Of a DNA stretch of 64,000 nucleotides, positions 38,557 through 60,018 are shown piece by piece. This DNA comes from Mucilaginibacter arboris. GTDB taxonomy: Bacteria; Bacteroidota; Bacteroidia; Sphingobacteriales; Sphingobacteriaceae. Under the pieces are notes generated by a model. It had not been told where the DNA came from. It ran no database searches and saw only the letters and a list, made by a program, of their open reading frames with translations. The stretch spans positions 1 to 64,000 of the forward strand of contig NZ_WPIK01000014.1 in NCBI RefSeq assembly GCF_009754915.1, given 5' to 3'. Numbering within the stretch: position 1 is the stretch's first letter; each line of letters begins with the position of its first letter. A program made the position numbers and the translations under genes.

Positions 38557-38846
38557 TGCTTAATGCCAGTACTTTTAGCTGCTTAACCCGAACTTATGTT
38601 TCTTTAATAATAGGTTTTTAACAATAGGGTTGAACATTATATCTTTCTTCTCCTGCTTGTCTTTTATTCTGAAGGCATAATAATCGTTCAATTTTAATAG
38701 GATTATACCGTATTAGGTATTTGAAATAATGATCTCTAAAACCCTATAGAGGTTTAATTATCACTGTAAAACTTAATTTTAATATTTTCATAAAGCGTAT
38801 TAAGATTTTTGTAATGTGCTTATTTTCAAATAATTGTGAATTTTAT
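38557..38846. other. Non-coding spacer at the left edge of the PUL
   Basis: AT-rich, with stops in all frames and no gene seen. It contains a small dyad around 38742-38757 (AAACCCTATAGAGGTTT-like) and no IS or tRNA sequence. Confidence 0.4.
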
Positions 38847-38879
38847 TTTGTTTTATTGATACTTATTTTAATAATTTTG
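38847..38879 (+). promoter_or_regulatory. Candidate promoter of the susC gene
   Basis: TTTG (38847-38850), 21 bp, then TAATTTTG (38872-38879). The 5' part of the spacer (TTTTATTGA) and its 3' end (ATTTTAA) are shared with the promoter candidate of the GH3 gene at 54012-54044. It lies 183 bp before susC, giving a long leader. Confidence 0.6.
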
Positions 38880-42191: not shown

Positions 42192-43733
42192 ATGAGAAGA
42201 AAAATTACTTTTGTAGTTGTGTTAGCCACTGGCATACAGCTACTTGGGGCTTGTAAAAAAGACTTGAATGTAAATCCGCAACAACGGGTTTTAGAAACAG
42301 ACTTTTATGCAACCCCTACTCAGGCATATCAATCATTAGTTTCTGTTTATGATATAGTTGGTAATCAATCAAGCGGTTACATGCTTAAAACTGCTATTAT
42401 GAACGTAGCCAGTGATGACCATTGGGCGGGAGGTGCATCAGCATCAGACCTTGGCGATTTGCAATCAGTGGCTACGTACACTATGACTCCTTCATCTCAA
42501 AATGGAGCAGCCGGGCATCTATGGAATAAGGGTTTTACAGGTGTTTACAGGGCCGATGTGTTTTTAGCAAAAATTGGTAACATAGCGGGTTTGGACGACG
42601 CTACCAAAAACAGATATATTGCAGAAGCAAAATTCTTACGAGCTTATTTTTACTTTGATCTGGTTCGTTTCTTTAGGGCTGTGCCATTGATGTTAACACC
42701 TACTAGCCCTGATGATATGTATAATATTGTTCAAGCTAATCCAGATAATGTATATGCACAAATCCTCAAAGACCTGACTGAAGCTCTTCCTAACCTTCCG
42801 GTTACCGTTCCGATAGCTACAGAAGGCGGACGTGTTACCCAAGGTACCGCACATGCTTTACTGGGCAGGATTTATATGTGGCAAAAAAAATACGCTCAAG
42901 CTGCTACAGAACTTGCTGAGGTTAATGGTACTGCACCTGGTGTTTCGCCAAGTAAATATGGTTATCAATTAATGAAAAACTTTAAAGACTTGTGGAGCCC
43001 TAAGAACAAATTTAACAGCGAATCTGTGTTTGAAGTAGTTTTTAACTCTACATCTCAGGGTGGCTGGAATAGCATAGGTTCGACTGAGGGAAATATTGAA
43101 TGTATATTGGTGGGGCCCAGGAGCTATACTACAAAAACTGCTAATGCTCCTGATTATGTTTCCGGATGGAGCGGCCAACCTTATACAGACGAGTTTTTTA
43201 ACCTGATACATAATGATCCGCGTAAAAATGCTACTGTGGCAGATTTGGACAGCCTCGAAAAAAATAATATTGCTACTTATTTACATGCATATCAAAACAC
43301 AGGGCACTTTATCGAGAAATTTGCAGGACGCGTTTCTACCAAAGCAGCAAATGGGCAATTGGAGCTTAATTTTCCGCTTGATATCTACGAAATTAGATTA
43401 GCTGATACTTATTTGCTTGAAGCAGAAGCATTATTACAAAATCAAGCAGGCGTAGGTGCAGGCACACGTGCATATCAGCTTTTAAATGCTGTAAGGGCAC
43501 GTGTAGGATTGGAGCCGGTTGCAGTAACCATGGATAATATCATGAAGGAAAGACGCCTTGAACTTGCAGGCGAAGGCCAACGCTGGTTAGATCTTGTACG
43601 CTGGGGCATTGCCGGTACTGCATTAAAAAGTAAAGGCTTTGTAACAGGTAAAAATGAAATATTTCCTATTCCGATTGCTGAAACTTATAATACTAAAATT
43701 GAACAAACCAAAGAGTGGGGTGGTAGTAAATAA
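42192..43733 (+). CDS. SusD/RagB-family glycan-binding lipoprotein
   Basis: The 513-residue protein has a lipoprotein signal with lipobox LLGAC. It then has the SusD TPR-like helical core (RYIAEAKFLRAYFYFDLVRFFRAVPL, TAHALLGRIYMWQKKYAQAA) and the conserved C-terminal IMKERRLELAGEGQRWLDLVRWG. It caps the SusC barrel and captures glycans at the cell surface. Co-transcribed with susC. A MITE-like element begins about 33 bp after the stop and separates the pair from the enzyme genes. Confidence 0.95.
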   Translation: MRRKITFVVVLATGIQLLGACKKDLNVNPQQRVLETDFYATPTQAYQSLVSVYDIVGNQSSGYMLKTAIMNVASDDHWAGGASASDLGDLQSVATYTMTPSSQNGAAGHLWNKGFTGVYRADVFLAKIGNIAGLDDATKNRYIAEAKFLRAYFYFDLVRFFRAVPLMLTPTSPDDMYNIVQANPDNVYAQILKDLTEALPNLPVTVPIATEGGRVTQGTAHALLGRIYMWQKKYAQAATELAEVNGTAPGVSPSKYGYQLMKNFKDLWSPKNKFNSESVFEVVFNSTSQGGWNSIGSTEGNIECILVGPRSYTTKTANAPDYVSGWSGQPYTDEFFNLIHNDPRKNATVADLDSLEKNNIATYLHAYQNTGHFIEKFAGRVSTKAANGQLELNFPLDIYEIRLADTYLLEAEALLQNQAGVGAGTRAYQLLNAVRARVGLEPVAVTMDNIMKERRLELAGEGQRWLDLVRWGIAGTALKSKGFVTGKNEIFPIPIAETYNTKIEQTKEWGGSK

Positions 43734-43765
43734 TATCAAAGCCTGCTTTGTTAATTGTTAGTATA

Positions 43766-44046
43766 AATGAAGTTGTTTAAACTTTTTTTCTGGCCCTCTT
43801 TTTTTAAGGTCGATGCTTCTTTTATCACCTAAAAATGCTGGTCATTGTTTTTTTTATCGATTAAGTGTAAACACCAATTTTTATTTGATAAATCACTACC
43901 TGACCTATAAGGTTTTCAAAACCTTATAGGTCAGGTAGTCAATACAAACACCATTTTTACCTGGTAAAAGAAGCATGCATACCAAACCTGAGCATGCCGA
44001 AGGATTAAATTTAAATTGGTACGAAAAGTTTAAACAAACTCAATAA
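43766..44046 (-). mobile_element. MITE-like element, copy 1 (inverted relative to copy 2)
   Basis: A non-coding element of about 281 bp ends in GTTGTTTAAACTTTTT and its inverted counterpart AAAAGTTTAAACAA. The centre is a perfect 22-bp inverted repeat with a one-base loop (43895-43939). Two interspersed motif copies, in opposite directions, lie inside (43815-43824 and 43965-43974). Read on the minus strand it aligns over its whole length with copy 2 at 59587-59925. No transposase is encoded, so it would move only with help from elsewhere. It could also act as a bidirectional terminator. Confidence 0.72.
43895..43939. repeat. Perfect 45-bp palindrome in MITE copy 1
   Basis: The arms ACTACCTGACCTATAAGG..TTTT (22 bp each) pair perfectly around a single C at 43917. 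In copy 2 the inner 15 bp of each arm are conserved around C59722. Confidence 0.85.
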
Positions 44047-44105
44047 CACATTATAAAACAGAAAGTGATAACAACAATTTCTGTTTTACGCTTTTACCCA
44101 TACTA

Positions 44106-45350
44106 ATGAAAAGTAAAACCGGCAAAATTCTTATTTTTTCCAGTGCCCTTGTTTTCATATTTGCAATGTTTTTATCACATTGTATATTTAATAACCATGG
44201 TTATGGTGATATAAGAGGTGAAGCTTATGCTGATCAAAAATCGTGTACAAAATGCCATAAAGATATTTATCAGTCTTACCTGCAAACCGGGCATTATCAT
44301 ACATCAACGCCTATTACAGATAATAAGTTACAAAATGATATTCGCCCGGATACTAATGTATTTATCTATAATGACAGCTTACAGATCAGGATAGAGAAAC
44401 TAAAAACGGGTTTATATCAGACAGCGTATTTTAAAAACAAGCTTAAAGTGAGGCAAGAGCGGTTTGACATAGCTTTTGGTTCTGCCGAAAGGGCGCAAAG
44501 TTACGGATATTGGAAAGGGGAGAGTTTATACGAACTGCCTTTATCTTATTTTAGCGATATACATAACTGGGCCATCAGTCCTGGCTTTCCGGCTAACTTA
44601 GTCTATTATAACAGGGCAATTGTAACCAGGTGCCTGGAATGTCATGCATCATTTGCTGAAAGTCATTATATAAAGGGCAAGTCAGCTTTAACGGTAAGTG
44701 AAGCATTTAACAAAAACTCAATAGTTTATGGTATAGATTGCCAGCGGTGTCATGGCCCGGCAGCAGAGCATGTAAATTATCATCTTGATAATCCTGAGGA
44801 TAAGCATGCAAGGTTCATTAAAACTTATCAATCATTAACCCGACAGGGTAAGGTGGAAATGTGCGCTGTATGCCATTCGGGCAACGACCAAAAGATAGAA
44901 AGATCAACTTTTTTATATAAGCCTGGTGATACGCTTTCCAGATTTATTGAACCTGATTTTGGAGGAGAAATACATGAACCAGATGTTCATGGGAACCAGG
45001 CAAAGTTGTTAGCAAGGAGTAAATGTTATGCAAGCAATGTAACGATGACTTGTACCACATGCCATAATAGCCATACTAAAGAAAGCAATAATCTTAATGC
45101 ATATAATGCAAAATGTTTTACATGCCACAATATCGAAACGCATAATTTTTGTAAAATGGCCCCTCAATTAGGTAATACAATTAATACTAAATGCATTGAT
45201 TGCCACATGCCTGCAATCTCATCCAAAATAATTTCTTATAAAATAGCTGGAGCCACAAAAGCCTCCTCTTACCAATTGCATACGCATCAAATAGCAGTTT
45301 ATCCACAAAAAACGCAGGAGATACTGCAAATGATAAAAAAAATTCAGTAA
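44106..45350 (+). CDS. Seven-heme c-type cytochrome (cytochrome c554-like)
   Basis: The 414-residue exported protein has an N-terminal hydrophobic segment (about 7-27, possibly a lipobox at FLSHC). Seven heme-binding motifs follow in order: CTKCH, CLECH, CQRCH, CAVCH, CTTCH, CFTCH and CIDCH. Between the first two lies a conserved non-heme stretch (FGSAERAQSYGYWKGESLYELPLSYF) found in large multiheme proteins. It should transfer electrons in the periplasm or at the cell surface; donor and acceptor are unknown. It heads a tight unit with three GH30 genes (4, 7 and 6 bp gaps), which is unusual for a glycan locus. Confidence 0.87.
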   Translation: MKSKTGKILIFSSALVFIFAMFLSHCIFNNHGYGDIRGEAYADQKSCTKCHKDIYQSYLQTGHYHTSTPITDNKLQNDIRPDTNVFIYNDSLQIRIEKLKTGLYQTAYFKNKLKVRQERFDIAFGSAERAQSYGYWKGESLYELPLSYFSDIHNWAISPGFPANLVYYNRAIVTRCLECHASFAESHYIKGKSALTVSEAFNKNSIVYGIDCQRCHGPAAEHVNYHLDNPEDKHARFIKTYQSLTRQGKVEMCAVCHSGNDQKIERSTFLYKPGDTLSRFIEPDFGGEIHEPDVHGNQAKLLARSKCYASNVTMTCTTCHNSHTKESNNLNAYNAKCFTCHNIETHNFCKMAPQLGNTINTKCIDCHMPAISSKIISYKIAGATKASSYQLHTHQIAVYPQKTQEILQMIKKIQ

Positions 45351-45354
45351 AAAC

Positions 45355-46821
45355 ATGCTTACAAAAATTAAATCAATAATAATAATAGGACTTGCAAGTG
45401 CAGGAATTGTAAGCGGAGGGGTTATGAGTTGTAAGAAGGAAAAACCAGGATTAGGCACAATTGAAACTCCACCTGTTCAGCCGGTAACATCTGTTAAAAC
45501 CGATGTTACCATGTGGTTAACATCGGTAGATGAAGCTGCCTATTTAAAAAAGCAGAATATTAGTTTAATGTTTACCAGTAGCACCAATCAAAATGCAACT
45601 ATTGAGGTAGATACTACCCAAACCTATCAGCCTATTGATGGATTTGGCTTTACGCTTACAGGCGGTAGTGCAACGTTAATAAATAACTTACCTATTGTGC
45701 AAAAAGACGATTTACTAAAAGAACTTTTTTTAACAGATGATACTAAAATTGGTATCAGCTACCTGCGTATTAGCCTCGGCGCTTCCGACTTGAGCGCTGC
45801 TCCCTTTACTTATGATGAAGTATTAGGTACTACAGATATAAACCTACAGAGCTTTAGTATTGACCAGGAGCGAACAGATATGATCCCTATCCTTAAAAAG
45901 ATCATTGCATTAAATCCATCTATTAAAATATTGGCCTGTCCATGGACTGCACCAATTTGGATGAAAAGCAACAATGCCTTTAAAGGAGGTAGCTTGAAAT
46001 CGGAATATTATGATGCTTATGCCCGCTATTTCATAAAGTACATTAATGCAATGAAAGCAGAAGGCATAACTATCGATGCCATAACACCACAAAACGAACC
46101 ATTAAATGCTAATAATAACCCAAGTTTGGTGATGCAGGCATCAGAGCAGGCGGCATTTATAAAAAACTTTTTAGGCCCTCAATTTAAAGCGGCTAATATC
46201 ACTACAAAAATTATTGCTTATGACCATAATGCAGATGTGCCCGATTATCCTGTAGCTGTACTAAGCGACCCTGCTGCTAAACCTTATGTAGATGGTTCGG
46301 CCTTTCATTTATATGCAGGAAATATTAGTGCATTATCAACGGTACATAATGCATTTCCAGACAAAAATATTTATTTTACAGAGCAATGGGTAGGCGCGCC
46401 GAGCAACTTTAACGGTGATTTGCAATGGCATATTAATAATCTGATTATTGGCGCTACCCGAAACTGGAGTCGTAATGTGCTGGAATGGAATTTAGCAGCC
46501 GATCCAAATTATGGCCCACATACCAGTGGTGGCTGCAGTACCTGTTTAGGTGCTTTAACCATTGCTGGCTCTTCTGTAACACGTAATGTGTCATATTATA
46601 TTATTGCTCATGCCTCCAAATTTGTAAGGCCAGGTTCGGTACGGATAAGTTCCAATAACATTGATAAGCTTCAAAATGTAGCTTTTAAAACGCCTGATGG
46701 CAAAAAAGTGCTGATTGTATTAAACAGCGGCAGTAGTGCTCAAACTTTCAATATAAAATTCAACGGGAAAATAACTACGGCTAGCTTAAATAACGGAGCA
46801 GCTGCAACTTTTATATGGTAA
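45355..46821 (+). CDS. GH30 family glycoside hydrolase (lipoprotein), copy 1
   Basis: The 488-residue protein has a lipoprotein signal (GVMSCKK). The GH30 fold opens with QPIDGFGFTLTGGSA. The catalytic acid/base Glu is in TPQNEPLNANN and the nucleophile Glu is in YFTEQWVG. WTAPIWMKSNNAFKGGSL and the C-terminal beta-sandwich (VRPGSVRISSNN to the end) complete it. GH30 enzymes of this type in Bacteroidetes loci commonly cut beta-1,6-glucan. Closest to copy 3 in this cluster (many long identical stretches), less so to copy 2. Confidence 0.92.
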   Translation: MLTKIKSIIIIGLASAGIVSGGVMSCKKEKPGLGTIETPPVQPVTSVKTDVTMWLTSVDEAAYLKKQNISLMFTSSTNQNATIEVDTTQTYQPIDGFGFTLTGGSATLINNLPIVQKDDLLKELFLTDDTKIGISYLRISLGASDLSAAPFTYDEVLGTTDINLQSFSIDQERTDMIPILKKIIALNPSIKILACPWTAPIWMKSNNAFKGGSLKSEYYDAYARYFIKYINAMKAEGITIDAITPQNEPLNANNNPSLVMQASEQAAFIKNFLGPQFKAANITTKIIAYDHNADVPDYPVAVLSDPAAKPYVDGSAFHLYAGNISALSTVHNAFPDKNIYFTEQWVGAPSNFNGDLQWHINNLIIGATRNWSRNVLEWNLAADPNYGPHTSGGCSTCLGALTIAGSSVTRNVSYYIIAHASKFVRPGSVRISSNNIDKLQNVAFKTPDGKKVLIVLNSGSSAQTFNIKFNGKITTASLNNGAAATFIW

Positions 46822-46828
46822 AAACAGC

Positions 46829-48274
46829 ATGAGAAAAAACTTCATATCATCGATATTAATTAGCTGTTCGTTTGTAACTGCTGCGCAACAAAAAACTGGC
46901 CAAGCCTCCGGTGGCCAGGTTAATGTTTATGTTACAGCACAAAATACTGATTTAAGGTTTTCCTCAACAGCAACCCTTAGACTTACGGATAAACCACAGC
47001 CTATTGAAACAGAGACAGCCATATTTGTAGATCCATCTAAAACTTTTCAGACAATGGTAGGAATAGGCGGTGCTTTAACAGATGCTGCAGCTGAAACTTT
47101 TTACAAATTGCCTGCAAGCAAGCAAAAGGAACTGCTTACTGCCTATTATGATAGAGACAAAGGTATTGGCTATACTTTTGCCCGGACCAATATCCAAAGC
47201 TGCGATTTTTCGAGTGATACATACAGCTATGTAGGCGATAACGACGCGGAATTAAAAACTTTCGACATCAGCCATGATAAAAAGTACAGAATTCCCTTTA
47301 TAAAAGAAGCTCAAAAAGCAGCAGGAGGCAACTTAAACCTTTTTGTTTCCCCCTGGAGTCCGCCTGCATGGATGAAGAGTAATAATGATGTTTTGCATGG
47401 CGGTAAGCTGAAACCCGAATTCAGACAAAGCTGGGCGAGCTTCTATGTTAAATTTATCAAAACTTATGAGAAAGAAGGTATTCCTATTTGGGGGCTTTCG
47501 GTGCAAAATGAACCAATGGCTACGCAAAAATGGGAATCATGTATTTATACAGCCGAAGAAGAGCGTGATTTTGTAAAGAATTTTTTAGGGCCAACCTTAC
47601 GTAAAGAAGGTTTAGGCAGCAAAAAGCTCATTATATGGGACCACAACCGCGATTTGCTATATCAACGCGCAAGTATAGTTTTAGAAGATGCAGATGCTGC
47701 ACAATTTGTTTGGGGGATTGGCTTTCACTGGTATGAAACCTGGACAGGCGGCGGTATGCAATTTGAAAGTACTAAACGTGTAAGCGAAGCATTTCCAGGA
47801 AAAAACCTTGTTTTTACAGAAGGATGTATAGAAAAATTTGATTTTGAAAGGTTGAACGACTGGGCACTTGGAGAAAGATATGGCTTATCTATGATCAACG
47901 ATTTTAACAGCGGAACGGTTGCCTGGACAGACTGGAACATACTGTTAGACGAAAAAGGCGGGCCAAATCACGTTGGTAATTTTTGTTTTGCCCCAATACA
48001 TGCCAATACCAGAGATGGAAGTTTACATTATACCAACGAGTATTATTACATCGGCCATTTCTCTAAATATATTAAGCCAGGGGCAAGACGCATCATCAGT
48101 TCTGCCAGCAGGGATAAACTGTTAACTACCGCATATCTTAATCCGGATGGTAAAATTGTGGTAGTGGTTATGAATGCTACGGATGCCAGCGTACCCTATT
48201 CTTTATGGATTAAGGGTAAAGCAGCAGCCACAACCAGCCTTCCGCATTCTATAGCTACTTTAATAATTGATTAA
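46829..48274 (+). CDS. GH30 family glycoside hydrolase, copy 2
   Basis: The 481-residue enzyme has a signal peptide (SCSFVTAAQQ). GIGGALTDAAAETFYKLP is the typical glucosylceramidase-like start, followed by FARTNIQSCDFS and WSPPAWMKSNNDVLHGGKL. The acid/base Glu is in SVQNEPMATQ and the nucleophile Glu is in VFTEGCIEKF. The C-terminal beta-sandwich ends in HSIATLIID. It belongs to a different GH30 branch from copies 1 and 3, probably with different linkage or chain-end preference. It has an exact motif copy at 47301-47310 (K-E-A-Q). Confidence 0.92.
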   Translation: MRKNFISSILISCSFVTAAQQKTGQASGGQVNVYVTAQNTDLRFSSTATLRLTDKPQPIETETAIFVDPSKTFQTMVGIGGALTDAAAETFYKLPASKQKELLTAYYDRDKGIGYTFARTNIQSCDFSSDTYSYVGDNDAELKTFDISHDKKYRIPFIKEAQKAAGGNLNLFVSPWSPPAWMKSNNDVLHGGKLKPEFRQSWASFYVKFIKTYEKEGIPIWGLSVQNEPMATQKWESCIYTAEEERDFVKNFLGPTLRKEGLGSKKLIIWDHNRDLLYQRASIVLEDADAAQFVWGIGFHWYETWTGGGMQFESTKRVSEAFPGKNLVFTEGCIEKFDFERLNDWALGERYGLSMINDFNSGTVAWTDWNILLDEKGGPNHVGNFCFAPIHANTRDGSLHYTNEYYYIGHFSKYIKPGARRIISSASRDKLLTTAYLNPDGKIVVVVMNATDASVPYSLWIKGKAAATTSLPHSIATLIID

Positions 48275-48280
48275 GCGGGG

Positions 48281-49681
48281 ATGAAACAAATTTTTTTAAC
48301 ATCAGCAATGCTGATCATGGTAAATGTATCTTTTGGACAAAAAAAAGGAACTGCTGATGTTTGGTTAACCAATGCTGACCAGTCTGCGTTATTTGAAAAA
48401 CAAAAACAAGCCCTGGTTTTTAAAAAAGCCACCAGTCAAGATTCTGTAATTGAGGTGAACGATCAAAAATCCTATCAGTCTATTGATGGTTTTGGCTTTG
48501 CTTTAACCGGTGGCAGCGCCCAATTAATGATGAAAATGACATCAGCTAATAGGGCGGCTTTAATCAAGGAGCTGTTTGCTACTAACGATAAAAATATAGG
48601 AATCAGTTACCTGCGTATAAGTGTCGGTGCTTCTGATTTAAATGAGTTTGTTTTCTCATACGATGATTTGCCGGATGGGCAAACAGATATGAGCTTATCT
48701 AAATTTAATTTATCACAAGACAAAACAGATGTGGTTCCGGTGCTAAAAGAAGTTTTAGCTATTAATCCAAAGATTAAAATACTTGCCTCACCCTGGTCTG
48801 CACCGGCTTGGATGAAAACCAATAATGATACCCGCGGCGGGAGTTTAAAACCAGAGTGTTTTGACGTTTATGCCCGTTATTTAGTTAAATACATTCAAGC
48901 CATGAAAGCTGAGGGTATAACCATTGATGCTATTACAGTACAAAACGAGCCATTGCACCCTGGCAATAACCCAAGTATGTTAATGATAGCCCCTGACCAG
49001 GCTAATTTTGTAAAGACAAATTTAGGCCCTGCGTTTAAGGCTGCCCATATCACTACTAAGATCATTATTTACGATCATAATGCCGACAGGCCCGATTATC
49101 CCATTTCCATCCTGAATGATGCTGAAGCTAAAAAATATATTGATGGTTCAGCATTTCACTTATACGCAGGTAAAATTGAAGCTTTATCTGAAGTACATGA
49201 GGCCCATCCTGACAAAAACCTGTACTTCACAGAGCAGTGGATGGGTGCGCCTGGAAATTTTAAAAGAGATATTGCAGATCACATTACTAAATTAACCATA
49301 GGTGCTACCCGAAATTGGAGCCGAAGTGTTATAGAATGGAACCTGGCTGCTGATCCTAACAATAACCCTCATACGGATAGGGGCGGATGTAACAGATGCA
49401 TGGGAGGTATTACCATTGATCAGGATAGCATAACTCGTAATCCTGCTTACTATGTTGTAGCCCATGCCGCTAAATTTGTAAGGCCTGGTTCTGTTCGTAT
49501 AAGTTCAAGCTTAGTAGGCTCACTTCATAATGTGGCTTTTAAAACCCCCGACAATAAAATTGTGCTTATCGTAATTAACAATAGTCCTGGTATTCAAAAA
49601 TTTAATATCAGGTACAAAGGTTGTAAAGCTAACACTCAGTTAAACAGCGGTTCTGTTGCTACTTTTGTTTGGGATAATTAG
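48281..49681 (+). CDS. GH30 family glycoside hydrolase, copy 3
   Basis: The 466-residue enzyme has a signal peptide ending VSFGQ. It has YQSIDGFGFALTGGSA, WSAPAWMKTNNDTRGGSL, the acid/base Glu in TVQNEPLHPGNN, the nucleophile Glu in YFTEQWMG, and the C-terminal sandwich. It shares long identical blocks with copy 1 (MKAEGITIDAIT, TTKII-YDHNAD, GATRNWSR), so the two arose by duplication. Copy 1 is a lipoprotein and copy 3 is not, so they may act in different compartments. Last gene of the cytochrome-GH30 unit. Confidence 0.92.
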   Translation: MKQIFLTSAMLIMVNVSFGQKKGTADVWLTNADQSALFEKQKQALVFKKATSQDSVIEVNDQKSYQSIDGFGFALTGGSAQLMMKMTSANRAALIKELFATNDKNIGISYLRISVGASDLNEFVFSYDDLPDGQTDMSLSKFNLSQDKTDVVPVLKEVLAINPKIKILASPWSAPAWMKTNNDTRGGSLKPECFDVYARYLVKYIQAMKAEGITIDAITVQNEPLHPGNNPSMLMIAPDQANFVKTNLGPAFKAAHITTKIIIYDHNADRPDYPISILNDAEAKKYIDGSAFHLYAGKIEALSEVHEAHPDKNLYFTEQWMGAPGNFKRDIADHITKLTIGATRNWSRSVIEWNLAADPNNNPHTDRGGCNRCMGGITIDQDSITRNPAYYVVAHAAKFVRPGSVRISSSLVGSLHNVAFKTPDNKIVLIVINNSPGIQKFNIRYKGCKANTQLNSGSVATFVWDN

Positions 49682-49896: not shown

Positions 49897-51654
49897 ATGA
49901 TGCATCAACAAATTATTGTTCATAGCAAAAATATCATAATTTCCTTAATCCTATTGTTGTCAGTTCCTGCTTATAGTCAGGGATTTTTAAAAGCAAACGG
50001 CAGACTAATTGTAGATAGCAAAGGGAATAAAGTTATTTTAAGAGGAATGGGTTTGGGTGGATGGATGTTGCAGGAAGGTTATATGTTTCGTTTGGCCAAC
50101 ATGGGCCAGCAATACAAAATAAAATCATGTATAGAAGAAGTTGCCGGCCCGGAATATGCAAGCAAATTTTATGAAAGCTGGCTAACTAACCACACTCGTA
50201 AAATTGATGTTGATTCTATGGCTGCTTGGGGTTTTAATTCTATTAGGCTGCCTATGCATTACCAGTTATTTACGCTTCCGGTTGATCTGGAACCTGTTGC
50301 CGGCCAAAATACCTGGCTCGAAAAAGGATTTACCTTAACAGACAGTCTTTTAAAATGGTGCAAAGCAAATAAGATGTATCTGATATTGGATTTACATGCT
50401 GCTCCCGGAGGTCAGGGAAATGATTTACCTATTTCAGATCGTGACCCCAGTAAACCCTCTCTTTGGGAAAGTAAAGCAAATCAGCAAAAAATGATTGCTT
50501 TGTGGAAAAAACTAGCTCAGCGTTATGCGAATGAACCCGCTATTGCTGGCTATGATATTATCAATGAGCCCAACTGGGGATTTGAAAAACCGGAGGATAA
50601 AAGAGGAACTGAAGAAACAAAGAATGAACCTCTGAGACAATTGATGATGGATATTACTAAGGCTATCCGTGAAGTTGATAAAAACCATATTGTGATTATT
50701 GAAGGTAATGGCTTTGGTAATAATTATCGGGGTATTTTCCCGCTTTGGGACCAGAACATGGTTTTGAGTTTTCATAAGTATGGCAATTTTAACAATCCAA
50801 GTGCTATACAGAATTTTTTGAATCTGAGCCAGCAATATCAAGTACCGCTTTGGATGGGTGAATCTGGCGAAAACTCTAATACTTGGTTTACAGAAGCTAT
50901 CCGTTTAGCAGAAAGCAATAACATTGGTTGGTGCTGGTGGCAGTTGAAAAAAATCGGCATTAATAATCCTCTTGAAATCAAATTGACACCATCTTATCAA
51001 AAATTATTGGATTACTGGAACGGAAAAAGTTCAAAACTACCAAAAAATCAGGCGATTGCAGCTCTTGATGAATTTTTAGACAATATCAAATTAGAAAATA
51101 CAATTTATCATAAGGATGTTACGGATGCGATGTTCAGGCAAATTAATACTCAAGCAACTTTGCCTTTTAATAGAAATATAATTGGAGGTAATACTACTAT
51201 TAACGCCATTGATTATGATTTAGGAGGCCAGCGATCAGCTTATTTTGATAAGGATACTGCAAGCTACCAGTACACACCTGGGGTAAAAACAATAGGAAAC
51301 CGTGGACATGCCTATCGTAATGATGGGGTTGATATTCAAGCTGATGATAATAATTACTATGTTTTTAGTATAGAAGATGGCGAATGGTTGCAATACACAA
51401 TCAATGTAAATAGCAAGGGAACCTATACTGTTAGATTTATAGTATCATCTGATGCCGGAAAAGGAACATTTTCCTTAATCCTAAACAATAACCGATTGCC
51501 AGATAGTGTTGCTGTAACTGGTTCCAGGGGCGCTAAAAATTGGTCTACATTCGAATTAAAAAATATTAAACTGCCTAAAGGAAACAACAAAATAAGAGTT
51601 TATGCTGATGAAGGCGGATTTAATCTAAAGGCTATTACTTTTATTAAAAATTAG
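49897..51654 (+). CDS. GH5 family glycoside hydrolase with C-terminal CBM6-like domain
   Basis: The 585-residue enzyme has a signal peptide ending PAYSQ. A GH5 (beta/alpha)8 domain follows (about 25-370), with LRGMGLGGWMLQEGY, the acid/base Glu near residue 224 (DIINEPNWGF) and the nucleophile Glu near residue 325 (WMGESGEN). A carbohydrate-binding module of CBM6 type (about 425-585: VDIQADDNNYYVFSIEDGEWLQYTINV) completes it. Such GH5-CBM6 enzymes include endo- or exo-beta-glucanases acting on beta-1,3/1,6-glucans. Exact linkage cannot be read from sequence. It is followed by the convergent sensor gene. Confidence 0.9.
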   Translation: MMHQQIIVHSKNIIISLILLLSVPAYSQGFLKANGRLIVDSKGNKVILRGMGLGGWMLQEGYMFRLANMGQQYKIKSCIEEVAGPEYASKFYESWLTNHTRKIDVDSMAAWGFNSIRLPMHYQLFTLPVDLEPVAGQNTWLEKGFTLTDSLLKWCKANKMYLILDLHAAPGGQGNDLPISDRDPSKPSLWESKANQQKMIALWKKLAQRYANEPAIAGYDIINEPNWGFEKPEDKRGTEETKNEPLRQLMMDITKAIREVDKNHIVIIEGNGFGNNYRGIFPLWDQNMVLSFHKYGNFNNPSAIQNFLNLSQQYQVPLWMGESGENSNTWFTEAIRLAESNNIGWCWWQLKKIGINNPLEIKLTPSYQKLLDYWNGKSSKLPKNQAIAALDEFLDNIKLENTIYHKDVTDAMFRQINTQATLPFNRNIIGGNTTINAIDYDLGGQRSAYFDKDTASYQYTPGVKTIGNRGHAYRNDGVDIQADDNNYYVFSIEDGEWLQYTINVNSKGTYTVRFIVSSDAGKGTFSLILNNNRLPDSVAVTGSRGAKNWSTFELKNIKLPKGNNKIRVYADEGGFNLKAITFIKN

Positions 51655-51705: not shown

Positions 51706-53634
51706 TTAATCAATGTTAAGGTGTTTTTTGTTTTCGGGTATTTCAAGAATTAATTTACTCCAACCCTGATTGCTGTTTTTCCTGCCTTTTGTTTTCTTTT
51801 CTTCCATTATTCTTTTTACTCGAATAGCGTATTGCCAGCAGGTGCTTTGCCGTATATCTAACCTTTCTGAAAGCTGGTAGGATGAGATAGTACCTTTAGT
51901 AGTGTACATTAAGTAAACCAGATAAAAAGCTTTATTGATTGGGATCCGGCTGTTTTGAAAAATGGTGTTAAACAATACTGATTCTTCATAATTGCAACTG
52001 GTACATCTCCGGCTGTATGGCGCTCGGCCATTTTTATAAATATAACTGCCGCATTTTATACAGCTAAAGCCATTCTTCCACTTAATTTCAGCTAAAAATT
52101 TATTACATTTTTCCTGATCGGTATATTTAGCGCTAAATTCTTCGAAAGAAAGCTCGGTCGATAGAATGCGTGCATCAGTAACCTTTTCAATATTACTTTT
52201 CAATTCAATGTTATCGTGCTCCAGCAAAATATTCATTCTGGATATATCAGCCGCTTGTAACTCTAGCTGTTTGTTAATAGCAATAAGCTCTTCATTTTGA
52301 GTTTCGATAATAACCGCCTGTTTCAATAATTCCTCTGATTTCTCGGTTACCTCTTTGGTACGCAGCCTTACCTTAACCTCTAATTCTTTATTTAAAGAGT
52401 CTTTTAATTTAATTGTTTCATCATGTGCTTCTTCCTTCTCTTTGCGTAGCAGGCGAATTTGATCTCCTATTGAAAAGGATAAAAAGGTCATTTCTAAAAT
52501 AAAGCATCCGCTTAAACTATAGTTGGTAATAATGCCCGTTATAGCATGTGCATAACCCAAAACAGTGAGTGCTTTAATAACAAAACCTATAGTTAAAAAC
52601 GTGTAGCCTAATACAAAAAACCGGGCTGGTTTAAAACCGTGGGCCCAAATAGTAATACCTGTTATAAAAGCAATGGAAAGCGGAATAAATTCGATGAACT
52701 TGTAATAAAACAAGCTATTGTCAAATACCAAGCAATAAATAAAATATACTGATCTGATTATAATAATGTAGTTTATAAGCTTATAAAGCTTTGGTGCTGT
52801 AACACGAACATGTAATAATGCTTTAGTAAATACTAAAGCAAAAAGGCTAACACTATATAGGGCAAATCCATAAGCATATTGGTTCCAATGAGGAGCGTTT
52901 GGCCAAACATATTGAAAAGCAATACCATCAATGCTCATTTCGTAAAGGCCAACACTTAGGATGTAAAGTACATAATAAAGGTACTGGCGTTTTTTAACCG
53001 CTATAAACATTAATAAATTATGGAAGCTGAAAATTAATATAATACCATAAAAAAGGCCATAAGTAAAATATTCTGTTAAAGCATAGTAAACAAAGTATTT
53101 CGTTTGTCTGTAAACCATAATGATGTTAACCGCATCTTTAGATTGTACCTTAAAATAACAGGCATATTCTCCTTTAGGTAGTTTACTGATCTGAAATTCA
53201 AAATTTTTGTGTTTATATAACCTATTATCAAAATTAAAGTTAGATCCTGTTTTACTTTCAATGTAATGACCATTGAAATCGGGCAGGTACGCAGTGATAC
53301 TATTGGTTGTTTGATCAAAAAACTCAATTATCGATGCCTGATCTGGTATGTCTTCAGTAAATTTAAATTTTATCCTATACCAACAGGTGGTATTAGAAAG
53401 ATGTTTAGGATAGTAGCCGGTATATAATTTAAATCGGCTGCTATACAAATTGCTTTTTACATCAATTATGGACAGCTTGTTCTGGTTGTCAGCCAAAAAT
53501 TCAATTTCCTGTCCAGTGAAAAAATGTTGTTTAACCTGGCTGTTTATTGAAACCGCTTTTTGAGCCAGTACATTTTGTACCAGTACATATAACAGGAAAA
53601 TAAGACCAGTACTGATCTTTTTAATCATTATCAA
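51706..53634 (-). CDS. 7TMR-DISM membrane sensor fused to IS1595-type zinc ribbon and helix-turn-helix-like domain
   Basis: The 642-residue protein has a signal peptide (about 1-24), an extracytoplasmic 7TMR-DISMED2-like domain (about 30-170) and seven membrane helices (about 185-390). A coiled coil follows (about 390-490). The C-terminal region (495-642) reads like the zinc ribbon found at the N-terminus of IS1595-family transposases: EEFSAKYTDQEKCNKFLAEIKW, C525/C528 (CIKC), C544/C547 (CTSC), NTIFQNSRIPINKAFYLVYLM. A helix-turn-helix-like segment comes next (about 582-612, SYQLSERLDIRQSTCWQYAIRVKRI). There is no DDE nuclease domain. I infer a one-component, membrane-bound DNA-binding regulator for this locus. 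Confidence 0.8.
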   Translation of the reverse strand: MIMIKKISTGLIFLLYVLVQNVLAQKAVSINSQVKQHFFTGQEIEFLADNQNKLSIIDVKSNLYSSRFKLYTGYYPKHLSNTTCWYRIKFKFTEDIPDQASIIEFFDQTTNSITAYLPDFNGHYIESKTGSNFNFDNRLYKHKNFEFQISKLPKGEYACYFKVQSKDAVNIIMVYRQTKYFVYYALTEYFTYGLFYGIILIFSFHNLLMFIAVKKRQYLYYVLYILSVGLYEMSIDGIAFQYVWPNAPHWNQYAYGFALYSVSLFALVFTKALLHVRVTAPKLYKLINYIIIIRSVYFIYCLVFDNSLFYYKFIEFIPLSIAFITGITIWAHGFKPARFFVLGYTFLTIGFVIKALTVLGYAHAITGIITNYSLSGCFILEMTFLSFSIGDQIRLLRKEKEEAHDETIKLKDSLNKELEVKVRLRTKEVTEKSEELLKQAVIIETQNEELIAINKQLELQAADISRMNILLEHDNIELKSNIEKVTDARILSTELSFEEFSAKYTDQEKCNKFLAEIKWKNGFSCIKCGSYIYKNGRAPYSRRCTSCNYEESVLFNTIFQNSRIPINKAFYLVYLMYTTKGTISSYQLSERLDIRQSTCWQYAIRVKRIMEEKKTKGRKNSNQGWSKLILEIPENKKHLNID

Positions 53635-54011
53635 AGGTTTAAATGAGGTTAACTGCTAAATTGGTTTACAAGGGTAACGCCTTGCAGAAGCAAGGCTAAA
53701 AATAGTAATAACTACCTAAATATTATATAAAGTGCAATCTGTTTTTAATAAGTTTTGACTAAAACCGCTCTCTATAAAAGTAAAGGAATGAATACCAAGA
53801 TTATATTTGGTAACAGAACATGCAAACTTCCTGATAAAAATCTCAAACGAAACTTTTTTACTGGATTTAACCGTATTGCTTGTTCCTTGCTGATATATTA
53901 AAAATCTTTTTATAACCTTAATTATCAATATTAATCCATTTTTTACTGTTTTCATTAAACGTATTAAATAATTACCAAAGTATTAATTGTCAATGTTTTA
54001 AATAAGAATAA
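53635..54011. other. Spacer between the sensor gene and the GH3 promoter
   Basis: No gene is supported here. A perfect hairpin GCCTTGC-AGAA-GCAAGGC at 53679-53696 lies about 45-60 bp before the sensor start codon and could be an operator or a 5' UTR structure. A 79-codon minus-strand frame (53716-53955) has no recognisable features. Confidence 0.45.
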
Positions 54012-54044
54012 TTTGTTTTATTGAAATGAAATTTAATAATTTTG
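54012..54044 (+). promoter_or_regulatory. Candidate promoter of the GH3 gene
   Basis: TTTG (54012-54015), 21 bp, TAATTTTG (54037-54044). The spacer starts TTTTATTGA and ends ATTTAA like the susC promoter. It lies 218 bp before the GH3 start, so again a long leader. Confidence 0.6.
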
Positions 54045-54262: not shown

Positions 54263-56677
54263 ATGATAAAAATAAACAGGTTATTGATAGCTTTTAGTTT
54301 ATGTGCTTTTGTCCAGGCCGCATCGGCACAAAACAAAAGCATCTATCAAAAGGGCTGGATAGATTTTAACAAGAACGGTAAAAAAGATGTATTTGAAGAC
54401 CCGGCAGAACCAGTAGAAAAACGTGTGGCAGATTTGTTATCGCAAATGACCTTAGAAGAAAAAACCTGTCAGACGGCAACGCTTTACGGTTATAAACGCG
54501 TTTTAAAAGAGGAAATGCCAGCGCCGTCCTGGAAAAATGAAGTCTGGAAGGACGGCATTGCCAATATTGATGAAGAGCTGAATAACCTTGCTTCTACAAC
54601 AGATGATGCCCCAACGCAATACAGCTATCCGTACAGCAAACATGCGTCTGCCATCAATACCATACAGAAATGGTTTATAGAACAAACCCGCCTTGGTATC
54701 CCGGTTGATTTTACAAATGAAGGGATACACGGGCTGAACCACGACAGGGCAACTTCTTTACCTGCACCAATTGCAATCGGCAGTACCTGGAACAAAGCAC
54801 TGGTCCGAAGGGCAGGCCAAACGGTTGGCCTTGAAGCAAAAGCATTAGGTTATACCAATATTTATGCGCCCATATTAGACCCTGCGCGCGACCAACGCTG
54901 GGGAAGGGTGGTAGAATGTTACGGGGAAGACCCTTTTCTGATTGGAGAACTGGGAACACAAATGGCACTAGGGATACAGGAGGAAGGCGTGGCTTCTACC
55001 CTGAAACATTTTGCTGTTTATAGCGTGCCAAAAGGCGGCCGGGATGGCAATGCCCGTACTGATCCACATGTAGCGCCGAGGGAAATGTACCAGCTTTACC
55101 TCTATCCATTTAAAAAGGTGATAAAAGAAGCACAGCCGATGGGCGTGATGAGCAGTTATAACGATTGGGACGGCATGCCGATAACGGGCAGCTATTTCTT
55201 TTTAACCGAACTGCTTCGCCAAAAATTTGGGTTTACAGGTTATGTGGTATCTGATAGTGAAGCTGTTGAATATCTTTATAGCAAACATCACGTAGCGGCT
55301 GACATAAAAGGTGCGGTAAAGCAAGCCATTGAAGCAGGCCTGAACGTGCGTACCAATTTTACCATGCCCCAAACTTATATCATGCCTTTAAGGGAACTGG
55401 TTAAAGAAGGCAGTGTAAACATGAAAACGCTGGATTCGCGTGTTGCCGATGTACTGCGTGTGAAGTTTAAATTGGGTTTGTTTGACCATCCTTATGTGCA
55501 AAACCCCGCTGCTGCCAATAAATTGGTGCATAATCAGACATCTACAGAAATGGCTTTACAAATGAACCGCGAAGCAATGGTATTGTTAAAAAATGACAAC
55601 AATCTCCTTCCACTCAATAAAAGCAAGATAAAAAGAGTATTGGTTACTGGTCCGTTAGCTGCCGAAACCAATTATGCAACCAGCCGTTACGGCCCGTCAC
55701 ATAATCCGGTAACGAGTGTGCTGAAAGGGATCCAGGATTATTTAGGCAACAGTGCTTCGGTAACCTACGCGAAGGGCTGCGATATTATTGATGCCACCTG
55801 GCCGGAAAGCGAAATTATAGAAACACCGCTTACAGATAAAGAACAAGCAGAAATTAATAACGCGGTAAACCAGGCCAAAAATGTAGATGTAATTATTGCC
55901 GTAGTAGGCGAAGACGTTAAACGTGTTGGTGAGAGCTTGTCAAGAACGGGATTAAATTTACCAGGCCGGCAATTGAAATTGATACAGGCATTGCAGGCAA
56001 CCGGTAAACCAGTTGTAATGGTGATGATTAACGGACAACCGCTAACCATCAATTGGGAAAACCGGTATGTGCCGGCAATTTTGGAAGCCTGGTTTCCCGG
56101 ACCGGAGTCAGGAAAAGTTATTGCCGAAACTTTGTTTGGGGATAATAATCCTGGAGGAAAACTTTCTATCACCTTTCCAAAAACAACCGGACAAATAGAG
56201 CTGAATTTCCCATTTAAGCCTGCTTCTCAGGCAAACCAACCTACAAGCGGTCCAAATGGTTACGGAAAAACCAGTGTAAACGGTGCCTTGTACCCGTTCG
56301 GTTATGGATTGAGTTATACCACTTTTGAATATAGCAATTTAACTATTAGTCAGCCTGTTATTCGTAGTCAGGCAGATGTTACCGTTACCGTTGATGTTAC
56401 CAATACCGGCAAAGTAAAAGGTGATGATGTGGTACAATTGTATTTAAAAGATGAAATAAGCAGTGTTACCACTTATGATTCTGATTTAAGAGGATTTGAA
56501 CGTGTGCCACTTATGCCAGGAGAAAAGAAAACGGTTAAGTTCACACTTCATCCGGATGACCTCGCCTTGTTAGACAAGAACATGAACTGGACTGTTGAAC
56601 CGGGAAAATTCCTGGTAATGATCGGCAGTTCATCCGAAGACATTAAATTAAAAGCAGAGTTTGAAGTGAAAGATTAA
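54263..56677 (+). CDS. GH3 family beta-glucosidase, copy 1
   Basis: The 804-residue exported enzyme has a signal peptide ending AASAQ and an N-terminal GH3 barrel. Its motifs are LGIPVDFTNEGIHGLNHDRATSLPAPIAIGSTWN, RWGRVVECYGEDPF, TLKHFAVY, and the nucleophile Asp near residue 330 in VVSDSEAVEYL. The second alpha/beta domain follows (LLKNDNNLLPL, AVVGEDVKRVGESLSRTGLNLPG). A fibronectin-III-like domain closes it (FGYGLSYTTFEY to the end). It would hydrolyse oligosaccharides to glucose in the periplasm. It carries an exact motif copy (55122-55131). Confidence 0.94.
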   Translation: MIKINRLLIAFSLCAFVQAASAQNKSIYQKGWIDFNKNGKKDVFEDPAEPVEKRVADLLSQMTLEEKTCQTATLYGYKRVLKEEMPAPSWKNEVWKDGIANIDEELNNLASTTDDAPTQYSYPYSKHASAINTIQKWFIEQTRLGIPVDFTNEGIHGLNHDRATSLPAPIAIGSTWNKALVRRAGQTVGLEAKALGYTNIYAPILDPARDQRWGRVVECYGEDPFLIGELGTQMALGIQEEGVASTLKHFAVYSVPKGGRDGNARTDPHVAPREMYQLYLYPFKKVIKEAQPMGVMSSYNDWDGMPITGSYFFLTELLRQKFGFTGYVVSDSEAVEYLYSKHHVAADIKGAVKQAIEAGLNVRTNFTMPQTYIMPLRELVKEGSVNMKTLDSRVADVLRVKFKLGLFDHPYVQNPAAANKLVHNQTSTEMALQMNREAMVLLKNDNNLLPLNKSKIKRVLVTGPLAAETNYATSRYGPSHNPVTSVLKGIQDYLGNSASVTYAKGCDIIDATWPESEIIETPLTDKEQAEINNAVNQAKNVDVIIAVVGEDVKRVGESLSRTGLNLPGRQLKLIQALQATGKPVVMVMINGQPLTINWENRYVPAILEAWFPGPESGKVIAETLFGDNNPGGKLSITFPKTTGQIELNFPFKPASQANQPTSGPNGYGKTSVNGALYPFGYGLSYTTFEYSNLTISQPVIRSQADVTVTVDVTNTGKVKGDDVVQLYLKDEISSVTTYDSDLRGFERVPLMPGEKKTVKFTLHPDDLALLDKNMNWTVEPGKFLVMIGSSSEDIKLKAEFEVKD

Positions 56678-56899
56678 ATAGGTGTAACGAAATCGACAAA
56701 ATTCGAAGGTTATTCAACAGCTTTAAATCCAAGTTACCGTTTCCTTCATAAAATAGAAAGGGGAATATAAGGGTAAAGAGAACCTTTTGCGATTGAAGTA
56801 ATAATCTATGATTTTACACAATGAGATATTTTGCATGGTGTTTTTTCTACTCTGATATTTGTGATTACATTCAGTTTCCAAATTATAGACTATATTATT

Positions 56900-59299
56900 A
56901 TGAGCTTCTTTAAAAGATACGCCGTTGTTCTGTTTGCTGTACTTATTACCGGTGCTTTAGATGTTGAGGCACAATCGGCCATCGTGCCCCAACTGGGCAA
57001 GAGTACGGTTAAAGAAGTTATTGCCGCTATGACACTGGAAGAAAAAGCGACATTATTAGTAGGAACAGGCCGTGCACCAAGGCCAAAACCTGCCCCGGGA
57101 GCAAAACCTGGAGTTAGCAATGGTTTTGTTCCTGCACCGCCAATGATCGGCCAAACCGAAGTTAAAGTACCGGGTGCAGCAGGAAATACAGCAGCCATAC
57201 CACGCTTAGGCATACCTTCCATGGTATTGAGTGATGGTCCTGCTGGTGTAAGAATATCTCCCATTCGTAACAGGGATAGCTCAGTTACTTATTATGCTAC
57301 TGCATTTCCGGTTGGTACCTTACTGGCATCAACCTGGGATCCTGCGGTCGTAAATGCTGTAGGTAAAGCCTTCGGTAACGAAGTGAAGGAATATGGTGTA
57401 GATATTCTATTAGCTCCAGGTGTAAATATTCATCGTAACCCATTAAACGGCCGTAATTTTGAATATTATTCTGAAGATCCGTTAGTAGCCGGTACTATGG
57501 CTGGTGCTATAATCAATGGTATACAATCTAATGGCGTTGGTACCTCTATTAAACATTTTATAGCTAACAATCAGGAAACCAGCCGTAACTTCGTAAACTC
57601 TATAGTAAGTGAACGTGCATTACGCGAGTTGTATCTGAAGGTATTTCGGATTGCTATTGCATCATCTAATCCTTGGACAGTAATGTCATCCTACAATAAA
57701 CTGAACGGTACTTACACGGCACAAAGGTATGACCTATTAACTACAGTTCTGCGCAATGAATGGAATTTTAAAGGTTTTGTTATGACCGACTGGGGCGGCG
57801 GGTATGATTGGATTGCTGAAATGAATGCAGGTAATGATTTGATTATGCCAGGAAGACCGGATCAAATTGAAACATTGGTTAATGCAGTTAAACACGACTC
57901 ATTAAACGTGAAAGTGTTGGATCAAAATGTTGAGCACATGCTTAACATCATTTTAAAATCGCCTGCATTTTCAAAATATCCTTATAGTAATAAACCAGAC
58001 TTGAAAGCACATGCCGAAGTATCGCGCAAAGCGGCAACCGAAGGTATGATATTGCTAAAAAACCAGGACAGTGCGCTGCCTATTAGTAAATCAGTAAAAA
58101 CAGTGGCTGCTTTTGGCAATGCTTCATATAATACTATCGCAGGCGGTACAGGTAGCGGCGATGTAAATAAAGCATATACTATTTCTGTTTACCAAGGGCT
58201 TGCCAATGCAGGTTATGTGCCTAACGAAAGCTTGAAAAACAGCTATACTAAATTCTTCCAGGATACCAGGGCGCACCAAATGCAACAGTTTCAGCAACAG
58301 CAGCAAACACAACAGCCAAATTCCCAAAGAAGGTTCTTTGGAGGGCTGGTACCTGAAATGGCTGTAAGCGACAGTCTGATCAATGAAACTGCTAAAAAAG
58401 CAGATCTTGCCATTATAACTATAGGTAGAAATGCTGGAGAAGGTTCAGACCGTAAGTTAGAAACAAACTATAACCTTACTTCGGAAGAAAAACAGCAATT
58501 TAAAAAAATTGCCGATGTTTTCCATGCTAAAGGCAAAAAAGTAATTGCCGTGCTTAACATAGGTGGCGTTATTGACATGAACGAGTGGCAGGATTATGCC
58601 AATGCTATCTTATTGTCCTGGCAGCCTGGCCAGGAAGCTGGTAATGCAATAGCAGATGTGTTAAGTGGCAAAGTAAACCCATCAGGTAAGTTGGCTACCA
58701 CTTTCCCTGTAAAATATGCAGATGTGCCATCTGCAAAAAACTTTCCAGGTACACCAGTTGATAAGCCTGAGCAGGTAATTTATCAGGAGGGAATTTATGT
58801 TGGCTATCGGTATTACGACAGCTTTAATGTTAAGCCAATGTATGAATTTGGCTACGGATTGTCTTATACAAACTTTGCTATTAGTAATTTAAAGATAAAT
58901 TCACCATTATTTAACGGGATGATTACAGCTACGGTAAATATAAAGAATACTGGAAAAATTGCCGGAAAAGAAGTAGTTCAAATTTATGTGAGTGCACCAA
59001 CAAAAACCATAGAAAAACCTATGCAGGAATTAAAAACATTTGGCAAAACCCGTTTATTGCAACCAGGCGAATCACAGACGTTAACATTCACACTTCATGC
59101 TGCGGATTTGGCTTCCTACCATACAGATAGTTCTGAATGGATAACCGATGCTGGAAAATATGTGCTGAAAGCTGGCGTATCATCCCGGGATATCAAACAA
59201 ACAACCTCTTTTAGTATCCCAAAAACCATTAGGGTTGAAAAGGTCCATAAAGTACTGCAACCAGAAGTAAGGATCGAAGAATTTAAGGTGGGGAAATAA
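56900..59299 (+). CDS. GH3 family beta-glucosidase, copy 2
   Basis: An upstream in-frame ATG at 56831 exists, but ATG 56900 gives a clean signal peptide (MSFFKRYAVVLFAVLITG, ending VEAQ), so I choose it; the product is then 799 residues. The GH3 barrel has VLSDGPAGVRI, VNIHRNPLNGRNFEYYSEDP, SIKHFIANNQETSR and the nucleophile Asp near residue 297 in VMTDWGGGYDW. The second domain (GMILLKNQDSALPI, TIGRNAGEGSDR) and the FnIII-like domain (FGYGLSYTNFAIS) follow. A Gln-rich insert (about 460-480, QQFQQQQQTQQP) is unusual. Different subfamily from copy 1. Confidence 0.93.
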   Translation: MSFFKRYAVVLFAVLITGALDVEAQSAIVPQLGKSTVKEVIAAMTLEEKATLLVGTGRAPRPKPAPGAKPGVSNGFVPAPPMIGQTEVKVPGAAGNTAAIPRLGIPSMVLSDGPAGVRISPIRNRDSSVTYYATAFPVGTLLASTWDPAVVNAVGKAFGNEVKEYGVDILLAPGVNIHRNPLNGRNFEYYSEDPLVAGTMAGAIINGIQSNGVGTSIKHFIANNQETSRNFVNSIVSERALRELYLKVFRIAIASSNPWTVMSSYNKLNGTYTAQRYDLLTTVLRNEWNFKGFVMTDWGGGYDWIAEMNAGNDLIMPGRPDQIETLVNAVKHDSLNVKVLDQNVEHMLNIILKSPAFSKYPYSNKPDLKAHAEVSRKAATEGMILLKNQDSALPISKSVKTVAAFGNASYNTIAGGTGSGDVNKAYTISVYQGLANAGYVPNESLKNSYTKFFQDTRAHQMQQFQQQQQTQQPNSQRRFFGGLVPEMAVSDSLINETAKKADLAIITIGRNAGEGSDRKLETNYNLTSEEKQQFKKIADVFHAKGKKVIAVLNIGGVIDMNEWQDYANAILLSWQPGQEAGNAIADVLSGKVNPSGKLATTFPVKYADVPSAKNFPGTPVDKPEQVIYQEGIYVGYRYYDSFNVKPMYEFGYGLSYTNFAISNLKINSPLFNGMITATVNIKNTGKIAGKEVVQIYVSAPTKTIEKPMQELKTFGKTRLLQPGESQTLTFTLHAADLASYHTDSSEWITDAGKYVLKAGVSSRDIKQTTSFSIPKTIRVEKVHKVLQPEVRIEEFKVGK

Positions 59300-59586: not shown

Positions 59587-59925
59587 TTATTGAGGTTGTT
59601 TAAACTTTTTGGTACCAATTAAATTTGATCCTCTCGGGATGCCTAGGTTTGGTGCCCATGCTTCTTTTACCGGGTAAAATTGGTGTTTGTATTTAATCAC
59701 TAACTGGACCTATAAGGTTTTCAAAACCTTATAGGTCTTTAGTGATTTACCGAGTAAAATTGGTGTTTACATTTAATCGATCAAAAAAACAATGGTTAAC
59801 ATTTTTTAGGTGATAAAAGAAGCATCAACCTAAAAAATCAAAATTTAATGGCCAGCATTTTTAGGTGATAAAGGAAGCATCGGCCCCAAAAAAGAGGGCC
59901 AGAAAAAAGTTTAAACAACTTCATT
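59587..59925 (+). mobile_element. MITE-like element, copy 2
   Basis: A non-coding element of about 339 bp with the ends TTATTGAGGTTGTTTAAAC... and ...GTTTAAACAACTTCATT. It aligns with the reverse complement of 43766-44046. It carries two exact motif copies (59660-59669, 59814-59823) and one variant (59869-59878, TAAAGGAAGC). About 60 bp more than copy 1 come from an extra motif-containing segment (59820-59880). The palindrome centred at C59722 keeps 15-bp perfect arms. Confidence 0.72.
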
Positions 59926-60018
59926 ATCAAACAAAGAAACAAAGAAATTTTAATAAGCAAGTTTTTGTTAAAACAAGTGAGCTTTGACTAAAGTTTAACA
60001 TCAGTAAAGCTAAAAGCT
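59926..60018. other. Leader of the Tat oxidoreductase gene
   Basis: AT-rich, no gene. The last bases before the ATG (ATCAGTAAAGCTAAAAGCT) show only loose similarity to the sequence before the duplicate at 38500. Confidence 0.35.

Follow-up and report, generated by a model that had tools for sequence, protein, structure and literature searches.

A candidate one-component PUL regulator joining a 7TMR-DISM sensor to an IS1595 transposase-type DNA-binding domain, and its predicted operator

In Mucilaginibacter arboris we identified a gene for a 640-amino-acid protein (51706-53628, minus strand) that joins a 7TMR-DISM membrane sensor to the zinc ribbon and helix-turn-helix (HTH) of an IS1595-type transposase. 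The gene lies within a polysaccharide utilisation locus (PUL) on the 64,000-nucleotide stretch of DNA analysed here (the window). Judging from sequence comparisons, we consider it quite likely that this protein acts as a membrane-tethered one-component transcription factor devoted to the PUL beside it, with a transposase-derived zinc ribbon-HTH that binds tandem repeats and activates transcription. PULs are the main route of complex-glycan uptake in Bacteroidota, and only a few types of regulator are known for them: SusR, HTCS and ECF/anti-sigma systems. The sensor family would add a further class. A large proportion of the genomes sampled from one family carry it, as do genomes of other families, and its predicted operator makes PUL regulation testable in Sphingobacteriaceae and relatives. 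It would also be a case in which a transmembrane receptor has recruited its output, a DNA-binding domain, from a bacterial transposase. We searched the full-text open-access literature on IS1595 zinc ribbons, domesticated bacterial transposases, PUL regulators and the domain names themselves and found no account of this family there; the architecture may already be listed, uncommented, in automatic domain databases.

The open reading frame occupies 51706-53634 on the minus strand, with its stop at 51706. The likelier start is the ATG at 53628 (MIKK...), two residues inside the TTG start proposed earlier, so the cysteines first numbered C525, C528, C544 and C547 are C523, C526, C542 and C545 here. 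A signal peptide is followed by a 7TMR-DISMED2 periplasmic sensor domain (residues 39-169; 53122-53514, minus strand; Pfam, 1.1e-18) and a 7TMR-DISM_7TM membrane domain (residues 186-389; 52462-53073, minus strand; Pfam, 7.9e-43, 147 bits against a cut-off of 29). Next come a coiled-coil or signalling-helix linker (about residues 391-490; 52159-52458, minus strand), an IS1595-type zinc ribbon containing the four cysteines (residues 504-547; 51988-52119, minus strand; Pfam) and an IS1595-type HTH with the recognition-helix motif IRQSTCW (residues 559-612; 51793-51954, minus strand; NCBIfam). The original prediction that one frame carries both the sensor and the zinc ribbon is thus borne out by Pfam matches to DISMED2, the 7TM domain and Zn_ribbon_IS1595. 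A Pfam scan of the protein found no HisKA/HATPase, receiver or AraC HTH domain.

The zinc ribbon scores 21.2 bits (2.9e-4) in the single-protein Pfam search, under the 25.4 cut-off, and reaches 27.0 bits, above the cut-off, in the whole-genome search. Independently of Pfam, the NCBIfam model transpos_IS1595 matches residues 559-612 through its profile positions 1-55 of 215, as expected from the HTH-like region that had been proposed to follow the ribbon. Taken together, the Pfam and NCBIfam matches define a segment in which the zinc ribbon precedes the HTH, the order seen in the transposases. All 14 representative homologues match both models, with best E-values of 2.8e-11 and 4.7e-8; the models are PF12760 for the zinc ribbon and NF033547 for the HTH, and the first of these members covers NF033547 positions 1-54. 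A chance zinc-ribbon pattern was ruled out, as the two profiles match in all 14 members. The DDE catalytic domain is absent, as predicted: positions 56-215 of NF033547 are unmatched and the frame ends 28 residues past the HTH.

AlphaFold2 gave models of moderate confidence (pLDDT 65.6 for the full length, 74.8 for the C-terminus), with a beta-rich N-terminal domain, a membrane helix bundle, a single long helix (H367-480, at the linker) and a zinc-ribbon/HTH-like end. The best Foldseek match of the DISMED2 region is the periplasmic domain of RetS (3jyb_A, E=1.5e-5); this fold and the DISMED2 match together identify the extracellular domain that is typical of 7TMR-DISM receptors. The C-terminal model had no Foldseek match in the PDB below E=1, and PDB sequence searches with the C-terminus gave nothing.

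Across Sphingobacteriaceae (401 family genomes searched) there are full-length homologues with 47-69% identity; among named genomes the first matches are Mucilaginibacter, together with Flammeovirga at 28-32% identity. A phylum-wide profile search with the C-terminus found the same fusion in further Bacteroidia families, along with IS1595 transposases that carry the domain N-terminally, stand-alone copies and proteins of about 310 amino acids. The zinc ribbon and HTH columns are the best-conserved part of the sensor protein, and C508 and the four zinc-ribbon cysteines are invariant in 51 homologues. Since the fusion has been kept full-length in many genomes, a frame error or pseudogene fusion is excluded. 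The same conservation already refutes the notion that a functionless transposase fragment became joined to a 7TMR-DISM gene by chance. The single-protein zinc-ribbon score under the Pfam cut-off would be compatible with such a fragment, but the full-length fusion recurs in many genomes of several families, and its DNA-binding residues are invariant even though the catalytic domain is gone; we regard a chance fusion as extremely improbable. In a domain tree the 34 sensor zinc ribbon-HTH rows form one clade nested among IS1595 transposases, with support of 91/84 in an incompletely resolved tree, and the simplest reading of these sequences would be a single fusion event.

Other variants of the domain were seen alongside the sensors. 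Genome G557 encodes at least 10 diverged IS1595-like proteins of roughly 310 amino acids (L115-L124, L249, L256, L260) that lack the VDE..GG catalytic motif, conserve the zinc ribbon-HTH and fall near the sensors on the domain tree; they are possibly another domesticated lineage. Family f4 (L131-L134, L153) is a stand-alone zinc ribbon-HTH protein of 154-178 amino acids whose neighbourhood is conserved in four of five loci. At L061 and L062, two sensor genes stand in tandem, adjoining PUL genes.

The sensor genes are closely associated with PULs. SusC and SusD are encoded near 47 of the 61 sensor loci, compared with only 2 of 14 loci of histidine-kinase 7TMR-DISM proteins in the same genomes (Fisher p=2e-5), in keeping with the glycan sensor originally proposed; 14 sensor loci have no SusC nearby. 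The other 7TMR-DISM proteins of these genomes end in histidine kinases. The phylum-wide search likewise found SusC and SusD near 10 of 10 sensor loci, nine of them from other families. Across 49 loci the main neighbours are SusC, SusD, GH30, GH5-like, GH3, GH2, GH16 and GH88 proteins and alginate-lyase- or chondroitinase-B-like lyases.

In the window, all on the plus strand, the PUL comprises susC (39063-42176) and susD (42192-43733), three GH30 genes (45355-49681), a Cellulase/GH5-like gene with a CBM6/35 match (49897-51654) and, beyond the sensor, two GH3 genes (54263-59299). Because of the GH30 and GH3 set, the substrate is likely a beta-glucan, possibly 1,6-linked. This set resembles the GH30_3/GH3 PUL for 1,6-beta-glucan in Bacteroides, where the SusR-type regulator BT3309 (SusR3) is located (PMC5481569). 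No HTCS, ECF/anti-sigma, AraC or LacI gene is present among the annotated ORFs of the window PUL (38.4-59.3 kb). The original statement that this PUL lacks a standard regulator therefore holds for its annotated ORFs; some homologues (L057, L074, L077) adjoin PULs that also have an HTCS. Between susD and the GH30 genes lies a gene (44106-45350, plus strand) for a multihaem c-type cytochrome-like protein, a probable lipoprotein of 414 amino acids with seven CxxCH haem motifs; its family was found in 9 of 49 sensor loci. The window also contains two inverted copies, 85% identical, of a palindromic intergenic repeat (43761-44049 and 59588-59926), an element that matches 115 times across the genome, with over 30 of these matches being long.

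The candidate operator is a pair of (A)AGCGTATYR direct repeats, separated by 78-79 or 86-92 bp, that lies ahead of the Bacteroidetes promoter serving the neighbouring susC, GH3, GH2 or GH30 operon. Two such pairs are present in the window, both on the plus strand. Upstream of susC, box A (38697-38716; CGTATT at 38709) is followed by box B, an extended 54-bp conserved element (38784-38837; core at 38796, 87 bp from box A; score 46.2), and by the promoter TTTG-N21-TAATTTTG (38847-38879). Between the sensor gene and the GH3 operon, box A (53860-53879; CGTATT at 53872) and box B (53948-54001; core at 53960, 88 bp from box A; score 36.4) precede the promoter TTTG-N21-TAATTTTG at 54012-54044. An alignment of the two regions spans 207 bp with 64% identity (E=5e-17); they share the same TTTG-N21-TAATTTTG promoter pattern, and the extended element occurs exactly twice in the window. 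The shared promoters at 38847 and 54012, picked out in the original prediction, are thus accompanied by paired boxes that recur at homologous loci, including upstream of susC in related loci. Box B is the more conserved box and reaches TTATCAG about 30 bp downstream; the promoter, where recognisable, has its -33 at about +53 and its -7 at about +77 from the core. The geometry of box B, TTATCAG and promoter is constant across loci, and the box B element ends upstream of -33 without overlapping the promoter. Within the spacer between the boxes (38717-38783 and 53880-53947 in the window, and in related loci) about 20 of 47 sites have an ATCA(G) element 36-39 bp ahead of box B, as if it were a weaker third site.

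An unbiased search for 6-mers recurring at a distance of 55-115 bp also recovered AGCGTAT-type repeats in four separate groups of loci, mostly 79 or 87-92 bp apart. In a leave-one-out matrix scan, 42 of 59 sensor loci had a pair that outscored every one of the 30 control loci and 59 shuffles, a count to be read with the motif having been learnt from the same loci as most of our counts and with the loci sharing ancestry. The pair was found in the held-out loci as well, in sets that are smaller (3 of 3 in one, 8 of 12 in another, with 240 shuffles below 18). At the 17 control loci, drawn from around other 7TMR-DISM genes, no score exceeded 12.7 bits. When 60 genomes were searched for the exact pattern, it occurred within 2.5 kb of the sensor gene in 26 of the 30 sensor genomes, and 27 of its 82 matches were near a sensor against 0.14 expected; a single conserved coding sequence, which sensor-less genomes also have, makes up much of the remaining background. 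Loci in which GH2, GH30 or GH16 takes the place of SusC as the target likewise have the operator with the sensor. The motif was seen with one recognition helix only: 45 of 49 loci whose sensor has the RQSTCW helix carry the motif, versus 0 of 13 with other helices (p=3e-10), and one of the four RQSTCW loci lacking the pair has a strong single element. For the f8, f9 and Flammeovirga groups the RQST-type matrix had no matches in the sensor loci and the pair-spacing search found no repeated motif.

The closest functional parallel is with SusR (BT3705) and SusR3 (BT3309), which are likewise membrane proteins with a periplasmic sensor and a cytoplasmic DNA-binding end, encoded beside susC/susD. 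For SusR, too, the predicted operators are direct repeats set very far apart, with spacers of either 67 or 77 bp, a difference of 10 bp (PMC3878776). The DNA-binding domain of SusR reportedly does not significantly resemble that of any other known factor, whereas the protein described here has an IS1595-type zinc ribbon-HTH behind a 7TMR-DISM half, and a box of its own that is repeated at a spacing of 79 or 87-92 bp. Sequence and context thus reproduce the SusR-type layout of a membrane sensor with a cytoplasmic DNA-binding end next to a PUL, a likeness that is a functional analogy only, and the best reading is that the sensor would work like SusR with a DNA-binding domain of differently described origin. 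HTCS perform the same job at PULs with direct-repeat operators; the sensor differs from them in having no kinase, receiver or AraC domain, and the predicted HTCS repeats are about 21 bp apart. The 7TMR-DISM histidine kinases (RetS/LadS-like; 14 in the same genomes) share the DISM 7TM input half but have a kinase output and rarely adjoin PULs. In IS1595-family transposases the zinc ribbon and HTH are homologous; in the sensor they are C-terminal, lack a DDE domain and are attached to a membrane sensor. The original prediction set the transposase-type output against the kinase, cyclase or LytTR-type outputs usual in 7TMR-DISM proteins. However, 7TMR-DISM sensors fused to a C-terminal ChiS-type DNA-binding domain are already on record (PMC8092284), in Proteobacteria and without a transposase zinc ribbon, and the C-terminus here is accounted for by the IS1595 domains. 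Because of this precedent the family ranks within the membrane-tethered one-component regulators and is not a separate kind.

These features support the one-component reading of the original prediction, with DNA binding and glycan sensing as predicted activities. The periplasmic DISMED2 domain and 7TM bundle may respond to a product of glycan breakdown or to a partner in the periplasm, and the signal would travel along a presumably dimeric coiled coil to the cytoplasmic zinc-ribbon/HTH domain, exapted, we infer, from an IS1595-type transposase. This domain would bind the tandem direct repeats, whose AAGCGTATYR cores are separated by about 79 or 89 bp and of which the proximal one reaches on to TTATCAG, and so activate susCD and the enzyme operon, as would be expected from a proximal element that ends just upstream of -33.

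The boxes could instead be bound by another cytoplasmic factor, with the sensor modulating that factor or RNA polymerase. Such a factor might suit the sensor loci without SusC, and boxes 79-92 bp apart are unusual for one small DNA-binding domain; long-spaced direct repeats are, however, also predicted for SusR, likewise a membrane-bound regulator. Moreover, the annotated ORFs of the window PUL include no further regulator gene, and across genera the operator goes together with the sensor gene and with the recognition helix of its product, which makes a separate binder unlikely. A sensor that binds the operator but mainly represses, to be released on glycan sensing, is also improbable. Position relative to the promoter is not strictly decisive for the sign of regulation, yet the conserved element stops short of the -33 box, and SusR is reported as an activator (PMC3878776). 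Dedicated binding by the sensor is our preferred reading, and it is probably an activator rather than a repressor.

The operator itself may have a transposon connection. The nearest active IS1595 relatives (L126, L236, L237 and L247) have the helix LRQKTCW and ends with GGCGT(T/A)T: TAGAATAAGGCGTTT at both ends of L236 and the left end of L126, GAAATAGGCGTTTA at the right end of L237, and GTAGGCGTATTGA on the left side only of L247, where the left end would be; a right end of L247 was looked for and not found. The ends of more distant transposases, with other helices, are unlike the operator. Compared with the operator (A)AGCGTATYRA, the ends of the LRQKTCW transposases resemble its core, with p-values per position of 1.8e-4 (L236 left), 4e-5 (L247 left) and 0.004-0.005 (L126 and L237 right), which are suggestive only because the registers were free and the rows are related. 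Descent of the operator from a transposon end is a hypothesis that we hold tentatively. It is conceivable, if somewhat doubtful, that both halves of the switch came from a transposon, namely the end-binding domain of the transposase and an operator that descended from, or converged on, the transposon end it recognised. The likeness of the ends hints that the target site kept the transposon-end core.
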